Shown here in pieces: positions 37,012-58,247 of a stretch of 64,000 nucleotides of DNA. Under the pieces are notes generated by a model. It ran no database searches. It saw only the letters and a program-made list of their open reading frames with translations, and was not told where the DNA came from. Each line of letters starts with the position of its first letter. Position 1 is the stretch's first letter. The position numbers and the translations under genes are program-made. The DNA lies in contig JAPWJW010000003.1 of the NCBI GenBank assembly GCA_028283825.1, positions 806,001 to 870,000 on the forward strand, given 5' to 3'. Source of the stretch: Azospirillaceae bacterium. GTDB lineage: Bacteria > Pseudomonadota > Alphaproteobacteria > Azospirillales > Azospirillaceae.

Positions 37012-37030
37012 CACCTGAACGGCGCGAAGC

Positions 37031-37164
37031 CCGCAGCATGAGATCTTAACTCATGCCGCTAGGCTGCGACCGCAGCCGCCGGAGATTTCCGGGGAGCCGA
37101 AGGCGGACTGGAAATCGAGGACAAGCCCAGGGCGCGGATGCGCCCGCCCGGCGCCTGAGGGACA
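37031..37164 (+). repeat. Three-hairpin intergenic element, copy C
   Basis: Sense strand is plus, directly downstream of the DUF2189 stop. Hairpins: GCATGAG (37036-37042) with CTCATGC (37050-37056); GGCTGCG (37062-37068) with CGCAGCC (37071-37077); GATTTCC (37084-37090) with GGAAATC (37110-37116); then the shared 3' block GGGCGCGGATGCGCCC and GCCCGGCGCCTGAGGG. Copies A and B lie at 48533-48648 and 58100-58231 on the other strand. The stem sequences differ between copies but remain complementary. Confidence 0.8.
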
Positions 37165-37169
37165 TCGCA

Positions 37170-37676
37170 TCAAGTAAACTGTAGCATCGACGGCGCCTTG
37201 TCGATGATCTCTTCCAGGATGGCCTCGGCGGTTTCCAGCTCGGTGCGGATCGATTCGTTCAGGCGGTTGGCGTATTCCGGCTGGCGCAGCTTCTCGCTGG
37301 CGTCATACAGGCTGCGCAGTTCGGTGACGAAGATTTCCCGGGCGCCCAGGGGCAGCACGGTCTTGGCCGACAGCACGAAGAAGAAACGCATGCTGGCCCG
37401 CACCAGCAGGCTCAGCATCAGCGTGTCCAATTGGGCGTAGCGTTCCCGCACCTCATCCGCGCTGCCGGTTTCCAGGCTGCGCAGGCGCCCCTCCACCAGG
37501 ATGCACAGGGCGCGGAATTCCCCCACCTTGTTGCGGAAGGCGTTGTACGCTTCGAAGCTGTCCCGGGCCGCCGCCGCCTCCGCCTGCTTGGCGAGGCTGG
37601 TGGATTCGCGGGCCTGGCGTTCCAGCGCCTCGAGCAGGCCGGCGACTTCCTTGCGGGTATAGACACGCTTGACCAC
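37170..37676 (-). CDS. Hypothetical helical cytoplasmic protein
   Basis: A 168-residue, mostly helical protein (ALERQARESTSLAKQAEAAA, LDTLMLSLLVRASMRFFFVL, RTELETAEAILEEIIDKAPS) with no signal peptide or clear membrane helix. I do not recognise the family; a coiled-coil or helical-bundle protein is likely. The start is GTG (product MVKRVYTRKEVAGLLE). It converges with the DUF2189 gene across the copy C element and lies downstream of the flavin monooxygenase, which is on the same strand further right. Confidence 0.55.
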   Translation of the reverse strand: MVKRVYTRKEVAGLLEALERQARESTSLAKQAEAAAARDSFEAYNAFRNKVGEFRALCILVEGRLRSLETGSADEVRERYAQLDTLMLSLLVRASMRFFFVLSAKTVLPLGAREIFVTELRSLYDASEKLRQPEYANRLNESIRTELETAEAILEEIIDKAPSMLQFT

Positions 37677-47829: not shown

Positions 47830-48210
47830 TCAGGCCATGACCAGCTTGCGCTCGTCATCCCGCTTCTTGGCGGGCTGATAGGCCATCAGGGCGTGTTCCC
47901 GGCAATAGGGCATGCCGGGCACCGACGGGCAGCCGCAGAAATGGAAATCGGCGTGCTTGGGATCGCCCACCGGCCATTTGCACATGCGCTCGTTCAACGA
48001 CAGGATGGTGGCACCCCGCGTCGGCTTTTTCTTGATAGGTGACGGCCGGCCCGACAGGCCCAGCCGGTGCGCCTTGCCGATCACCGCGTTGCGGGTGACG
48101 TTACCCAGCAGATCGGCGATTTCACTGGCGCTCATGCCCTGGCCCCACAATTGGCGCAGGCGCTCAATACGCTCGTCCGTCCAATTAACCGACGCTTTTT
48201 CTTCTTCCAT
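47830..48210 (-). CDS. gcrA: GcrA cell-cycle regulator
   Basis: A 126-residue alphaproteobacterial regulator that binds sigma-70 RNA polymerase and activates promoters with methylated GANTC sites. The N-terminus VNWTDERIERLRQLWGQGMS and SASEIADLLGNVTRNAVIGK form the helix-turn-helix; the C-terminal part has the conserved FCGCPSVPGMPYCREHALMA. Start ATG at 48210 (MEEEKASVNW). Three GANTC sites cluster about 165-195 bp upstream (separate entry), so the gene may respond to CcrM methylation. Confidence 0.95.
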   Translation of the reverse strand: MEEEKASVNWTDERIERLRQLWGQGMSASEIADLLGNVTRNAVIGKAHRLGLSGRPSPIKKKPTRGATILSLNERMCKWPVGDPKHADFHFCGCPSVPGMPYCREHALMAYQPAKKRDDERKLVMA

Positions 48211-48532: not shown

Positions 48533-48648
48533 CATCCCCTCAAGCGCCGGGCGGGCGCATCCGCGCCCTTGGCTTCCTCGCTCCGCCCTGCGGTGCTCGC
48601 TCCGGGGCCGGCAGTCGCCGGCCTGGGCATGGGTATTCCCCATGCCCA
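48533..48648 (-). repeat. Three-hairpin intergenic element, copy A
   Basis: Sense strand is minus, directly after the stop of the long isocitrate dehydrogenase. Read in plus coordinates: TGGGCATGGG (48624-48633) with CCCATGCCCA (48639-48648); GGCCGGC (48606-48612) with GCCGGCC (48617-48623); and the shared block with GGGCGC...GCGCCC ending at CATCCCCTCAAGCG (48533-48546). The middle hairpin is diverged compared with copies B and C. Confidence 0.75.
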
Positions 48649-58094: not shown

Positions 58095-58099
58095 TTTTG

Positions 58100-58231
58100 C
58101 ATCCCCTCAAACGCCGGGCGGGCGCGTCCGCGCCCTAGGCTTATCCTCACTTTTCAGTCCGCTACGCTCCCCGAAAAGTTCCGGCGGCCCCGGTCGGGGC
58201 CTACAGCGGCATGAGACTGGCTCATGCCGCT
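58100..58231 (-). repeat. Three-hairpin intergenic element, copy B
   Basis: Sense strand is minus, between the alaS stop and the moxR start. Hairpins: AGCGGCATGAG (58205-58215) with CTCATGCCGCT (58221-58231); GGCCCCG (58186-58192) with CGGGGCC (58195-58201); ACTTTTC (58149-58155) with GAAAAGT (58173-58179); and the shared block ending CATCCCCTCAAACG (58100-58113). Its last bases form the moxR ribosome binding site. Confidence 0.82.
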
Positions 58232-58247
58232 GCTTGAGGAGTAGCGA

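Follow-up and report, generated by a model that had tools for sequence, protein, structure and literature searches.

A high-copy three-hairpin element of Nitrospirillum and other Alphaproteobacteria, probably a REP/MITE-like mobile repeat

The stretch of DNA analysed here (the window) covers 64,000 nucleotides of an Azospirillaceae genome and holds three intergenic copies of a hairpin element. These copies, which the first-pass annotation had lettered B (58100), C (37031) and A (48533), lie where it placed them and carry the stem letters that it quoted. The named copy, B, has its core of stem 2, stem 3, stem 4 and TGAGGG at 58104..58203 on the minus strand, where it matches R1, a covariance model of the core with 102 positions built from 20 copies of this genome, at 113.6 bits (it is training copy L011); its stem 1 hairpin, CAGCGGCATGAG/CTCATGCCGCTG, was read from the sequence at 58204..58232 (minus). 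The core of the second copy, at 37060..37161 on the plus strand (121.9 bits; also in the training set), adjoins an imperfect stem 1 hairpin at 37033..37059 (plus), again read from the sequence. The third core, at 48537..48624 on the minus strand, came from outside the training set (53.0 bits, E 2e-9) and is a variant with a shorter and different stem 3, whose predicted fold is little better than those of shuffled sequences (z -0.98). A variant core with stem 3 replaced by GAGCACCGCAGGGCG-type sequence was seen at three loci (L010, L016 and L018), one of which is this copy.

The neighbouring genes named by the earlier annotation were likewise borne out: alanyl-tRNA synthetase, an isocitrate dehydrogenase with the bacterial C-terminal domain, and a DUF2189 protein. 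The 37060 copy is flanked by the DUF2189 gene (plus) and a gene without a Pfam match (minus), and the 48537 copy lies downstream of the isocitrate dehydrogenase gene, which itself adjoins a gene for the cell-cycle regulator GcrA at 47830-48210 (minus). Sequence and comparison with relatives place a further hairpin beside the third copy, at 48625..48648 (minus); three of five relatives that lack the element (G002, G003 and G006) have a similar hairpin followed by CATTTT in this region, and the one in the window may therefore be a terminator that belongs to the gene.

The gene 3' of the 58100 copy encodes an AAA/AAA_5 ATPase. The first-pass annotation had called it moxR and had read the final bases of the element as its ribosome-binding site; the placement stands, and the name MoxR is that annotation's own. 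TGAGGG and the 9 nt that separate it from the ATG of this moxR-like gene (58095..58109, minus) probably form such a site: the motif lies 8-9 nt ahead of the ATG in six of seven Nitrospirillum genomes, and the seventh, G001, has TGAGGC farther from the ATG. At this gene, the last bases of the element appear to have been taken over for translation. The placement is not general among copies, since a called start lies 9 nt downstream of the copy in three of 108 cases and 15 nt downstream in one.

Read in its sense direction, the element runs from stem 1 through TAG, stem 2, stem 3 and GAGGA to a short GCC/GGC helix that encloses stem 4, and ends in TGAGGG. Stem 2 has six pairs and usually a GACN loop, stem 3 is long with internal loops, and stem 4 has six pairs and usually a GGAT or GGAC loop; some copies continue into a last hairpin of TTTGATCGGTCACGATCAAA type and a GTA end. 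Stem 1 is of the CAGCGGCATGAG/CTCATGCCGCTG type, and a hairpin fills its slot in 74 of 111 copies. The other 37 have none there, so the core may spread by another route, and a T-rich tail stands just ahead of several of them. In yet other copies (L052, L202, L210 and L022), CGGAGCGNAGCGAC was seen ahead of the core. We considered whether stem 1 (GGCATGAG type) might be the host gene's own terminator and rejected this, because all 15 of the hairpins fetched, from 69 of this type in the genome, adjoin the start of a core (13 by script and two by eye, the latter with TAGGCC and TAGGAT in reverse). Two other pairings were also set aside. Pairing of the bases ahead of TAGG with those that follow TGAGGG, which would enclose the entire core in one stem, has weak backing: among seven offsets the highest z was 3.3, and the signal is confined to copies that lack stem 1. 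In the minimum-energy folds of the 37060 and 58104 copies GCCGG pairs with CCGGC, but covariation prefers the GCC/GGC helix beside stem 4, one pair of which turns to G-C in 36 of 115 copies; in 29 of the 33 copies where that helix reads GGC/GCC, the 5' GCCGG has kept its letters and could no longer pair in full.

Searches of the whole genome establish that the element belongs to a real family. In 7.16 Mb of genome, the 16-base core GGGCGCGGAYGCGCCC has 26 exact copies and its reversed control none; by eye, 24 of them lie within the same element, one (L015) lies outside it and one (L024) is partial. The 3' block GCCCGSCGNYTGAGG has 353 exact matches against two for its reversed control, a figure that counts block matches rather than individually checked full elements. 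Within the window alone, the 16-base core gave four matches when two mismatches were allowed, which is not significant (9 of 100 shuffles gave as many), and a 37-base stretch gave two matches against none, which is. Searching the genome and its relatives with a covariance model, the route suggested by the first-pass annotation, uncovered many further copies: R1 returned at least 150 candidates in this genome, all scoring 80 bits or more, and 92 to at least 100 matches in each of six other genomes of the genus, the named carriers being Nitrospirillum amazonense, N. viridazoti and N. iridis. Fourteen of 40 genomes, this one included, had an element match. A compact sister form, modelled as R2 from 18 copies, was found at E 1e-5 or better in 17 of 240 Alphaproteobacteria genomes and 16 of 203 genera, a count that includes our own genome and the two (G017 and G034) that supplied copies to the model; each matching genome has from one to at least 20 matches. 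Niveispirillum cyanobacteriorum is one host of the sister form, and a sister copy matches two of its replicons in the plasmid and phage collections. These collections gave no plasmid match for 58095-58240 and no phage match for 37020-37180. Rfam returned no match across the window at the gathering score and nothing over the element in six loci at a relaxed E. In open-licence PubMed Central, as far as titles and the beginnings of abstracts go, we found no account of such a repeat in Nitrospirillum, and an Azospirillum genome paper mentions, of repeats, CRISPR alone (PMC3899980). As far as this literature shows, the family is undescribed.

Individual sites differ between relatives. A full-length core is recognised at the 58104 site in six of seven genomes, G003 having a deletion; the 37060 copy is present in G002 and G006 and missing from G003, G004 and G005; and none of the five relatives compared has the 48537 copy at this place. 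At the sites of the window copies, these comparisons yielded no clean empty site.

The position of copies relative to genes was determined with a codon-usage gene caller built for this analysis, which placed 108 of 116 copies (eight were dropped for short flanks). No copy lies wholly inside a called gene, and five overlap a gene end by 3-40 nt. Sixty-one lie between convergent, 44 between tandem and three between divergent genes; intergenic bases in one region of six genomes divide into 11% convergent, 61% tandem and 28% divergent. An opposing gene stands to the right of 83 copies; its stop lies 2-13 nt past the core in 56 of them and 33-43 nt past it in eight. Location between convergent or tandem genes (105 of 108) and close to 3' ends is thus a REP-like feature. 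Clusters were also seen: three cores lie head to tail with 4 bp spacing at L179:899-1204, and BIME-like inverted pairs of cores occur at L190, L202 and L022.

The ends of the element are best read in the sister form, which measures about 142-158 bp and consists of a first hairpin, the three-hairpin core, a last hairpin and TACC..GGTA ends. Sister copies from G010, G017 and G034 read TNA-TACC ... GGTA-TNA, with an equal TNA on both sides. Of 43 cores scanned, 29 lacked one or both such ends, some because the contig stops there; among the 14 readable ones the trinucleotides are equal in 12 (permutation p 0.0001), namely in 10 of 11 from G010 and in the single copies from G017 and G034, the single copy from G022 disagreeing (the two misses are L110 and L143). 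Two G010 copies are inserted within other copies (L145 and L154). Shorter elements with TACC..GGTA ends, of about 110-120 bp, were seen at L240:1075-1200 and L242:2053-2167. In Nitrospirillum, most ends have decayed while the core is still paired. Of the copies there in which the last hairpin survives, just two, L029 and L050, show by eye a clearly equal TNA; L050 is the clearest intact case, and one clear case reads TCA-TACC..GGTA-TCA. Six relatives lack the element at the L050 site and offer no clean empty site, the spacer being too diverged. A TNA precedes the stem 1 slot in 16 of 47 copies, against a background of 3.5% that was drawn partly from coding sequence and may be lower for that reason, and in eight of 37 copies the upstream stop codon falls exactly at this slot (six TAA or TGA, two TAG).

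No capable transposase was found in the two families searched. Proteins of PF01797, which comprises RAYT and other Y1 transposases, are absent from all seven genomes of the genus, and DDE_Tnp_1 was rejected as a partner, none of eight sister-genome loci (from five genomes) having the element's ends. In G010, which carries at least 150 element matches, many of equal score, a gene with a PF01797 hit lies at L155:1435-2106, and we take its product to be a RAYT-like protein; no core lies in the 2.6 kb around it.

How should such an element be classed? Bacterial MITEs are short and non-autonomous, with inverted ends, target duplication, nested insertions and a patchy distribution. Our element resembles them in being short, nested and patchy, and in the TACC..GGTA inverted ends and equal TNA of the sister copies, which are rarely readable in Nitrospirillum; it differs in its elaborate covarying interior, in the lack of a parent insertion sequence among our finds and in the loss of most ends in Nitrospirillum. 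As described in PMC3733652, a REP of the GTAG or CGTC super-family consists of one palindrome, 20-40 bp long, and an unpaired tag, GTAG or CGTC; such repeats occur mainly between convergent and tandem genes, and in the convergent case most lie less than 20 bp away from a 3' end. Our element shares with the REPs and BIMEs of that account many intergenic palindromic copies, convergent and tandem sites, dimers, clusters and stem variants; unlike them, it has a core of about 100 nt, reaches 158 bp with its ends, is built of three to five hairpins joined by conserved unpaired letters, and has sister copies flanked by equal TNA. The size of a GTAG-type REP is therefore absent, and so, in the seven genomes of the genus, is the RAYT transposase; GTAG does occur where stem 1 meets stem 2 in 68 of 116 copies, with its letters partly in stems, and is not conserved in the sister form. 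The same source gives CGTC-type REPs as the commonest in Alphaproteobacteria and lists A. lipoferum among its species. CGTC occurs somewhere in 46 of 116 cores and just ahead of the TGAGG end in only eight, and inspection of A2 and A6 revealed none of the stems beginning with A/T pairs that mark this type, whose stems measure 8-9 bp and whose tail is CCA. Br-REP1 of Bradyrhizobium, according to PMC5082802, has three palindromes in a row, which lie where the 3'-UTRs of convergent genes overlap, at about 200 sites. Palindromes in a row at convergent 3' ends, an alphaproteobacterial host and rapid change are points of likeness; the 20-mer Br-REP1 palindrome CCGGAATCTCGAGATTCCGG nevertheless has fewest-mismatch counts in copies of our element that are distributed as in shuffled sequence. 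By these tests the element is no member of the GTAG, CGTC or Br-REP1 types, and it appears best filed beside REP/BIME and MITE.

We therefore read the element as a member of an unnamed, non-autonomous, REP/MITE-like mobile family of Alphaproteobacteria, with a probability of roughly 0.6. Of the three guesses in the first-pass annotation (a 3'-UTR stabiliser, a regulatory RNA motif and a REP/BIME-like mobile palindrome), the last fits best, given the copy number, patchiness, TNA ends, clusters and 3'-end location. Comparison of copies in the sister genera indicates that the element inserts at TNA and duplicates those three bases. On the coding strand TAA and TGA, both stop codons, fit TNA, as do their complements TTA and TCA on the other; since TAA and TGA would be duplicated on insertion, entry into a stop codon would restore the stop and spare the gene. 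Together with the loss of harmful insertions, this would leave copies hugging gene ends, and entry into stop codons would account in part for their place at 3' ends. In Nitrospirillum the ends would then mostly have decayed, with core pairing retained.

How the stems change bears on what keeps them paired. In 20 copies, 97.6% of stem cells are paired. In 116 copies, all distinct, the figure is 98.5%, and 19 of 27 pairs have changed on both sides, in an alignment that was fitted to the model and so favours pairing; the 99 loci that supplied these copies were the top scorers plus the earliest finds, which tilts the set towards the well preserved (two copies are cut by locus ends). The covariation score of the 116 is 0.451; shuffles reach 0.128, and slid partners no more than 0.080. 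Further copies and covariation, the two properties on which the first-pass annotation had staked its proposal, are therefore both present. That annotation called the compensatory changes the signature of a selected structure; pairing is indeed kept, but the phrase is too strong. Mean excess mutual information is 0.174 within stems (18 column pairs) and 0.009 between them (60 column pairs), and 30 pairs of nearest paralogs, with at most eight differences each, show 45 double changes, 11 single changes that keep pairing and four that break it, so that the excess of double over single changes holds for nearly identical copies too. Where one site is occupied in several species (the moxR site, the 37060 site and a third site presumed orthologous), its copies also differ mostly by double changes, with six double, no single and no broken changes in the two genomes compared at the moxR site. 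From these comparisons, exchange or correction seems to act on each hairpin as a whole. Since the stems change as intact blocks that reassort between copies, covariation alone is no proof of a selected RNA; gene conversion between copies, or correction of one hairpin arm on the template of the other, is also consistent with the pattern. A purely selfish repeat without host function, its pairing kept by just such conversion or arm-templated correction, would account for the block-wise variation and the excess of double changes alike. Two observations speak against it: the core is still paired where the ends have decayed, and, with one misaligned apical pair excluded, the element's own strand has 53 G-T cells (32 of them at one position) against six A-C and 11 others, an excess that speaks for a fold formed by that strand, be it as RNA or as single-stranded DNA. 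We consider this explanation possible, if doubtful.

If the element is instead the REP/MITE-like mobile family favoured here, its present role would most likely be a passive one, in which stable, strand-independent hairpins at mRNA 3' ends block exonucleases or aid termination between convergent genes. A role as a 3'-end boundary or mRNA stabiliser is a plausible candidate. A scan for a hairpin followed by a T-run found no intrinsic terminator around the 37060 and 58104 copies, which makes an exonuclease block or a Rho-linked boundary likelier there than intrinsic termination; some other copies sit directly after a T-rich tail. It is tempting to go further and to envisage a mobile RNA-structured module that enters stop codons harmlessly, supplies a structured 3' end and swaps hairpins, with hundreds of isostructural 3' ends kept by selection, but we hold this extended form to be unlikely.

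More improbable still, it seems, is that the copies form a true regulatory or trans-acting RNA family which serves the cell, perhaps as protein-binding sites in 3'-UTRs. Such a family would account for unpaired letters that are conserved across genera (the GAC loop, the GGA loop, AAG and TGAGGG) and for the G-T bias of the element's own strand. Beside tandem genes, however, 22 copies are in sense and 22 in antisense orientation, which gives little positive support to the earlier guess of a regulatory RNA motif, and the G-T bias is not reversed in antisense copies (eight G-T, no A-C; the numbers are small). The patchy distribution, with 17 of 240 genomes matching, and the lack of an Rfam match over the window or the six loci also count against it. 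CsrA binds GGA loops, and a Csr/Rsm decoy RNA with conserved GGA motifs was rejected, CsrA being absent from 39 of 40 genomes, among them all seven of the genus. Finally, a GTAG-type REP moved by a RAYT transposase can be regarded as largely refuted, despite the GTAG at the junction and the RAYT-like protein of G010, given that PF01797 is missing from the genus, that the sequence retrieved around G010's two Y1-type genes holds no core, and that RAYT-moved REPs are not known to make 3-bp duplications.

The element described here adds a family to the high-copy palindromic repeats, with matches in 16 of the 203 Alphaproteobacteria genera sampled. It also carries a warning for the study of such families, in that covariation can arise from the exchange of blocks between repeats and, taken alone, does not prove that an RNA is under selection. 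Moreover, the family suggests a simple cause for the presence of repeats at gene ends, namely that TNA targets include stop codons, which duplication restores.
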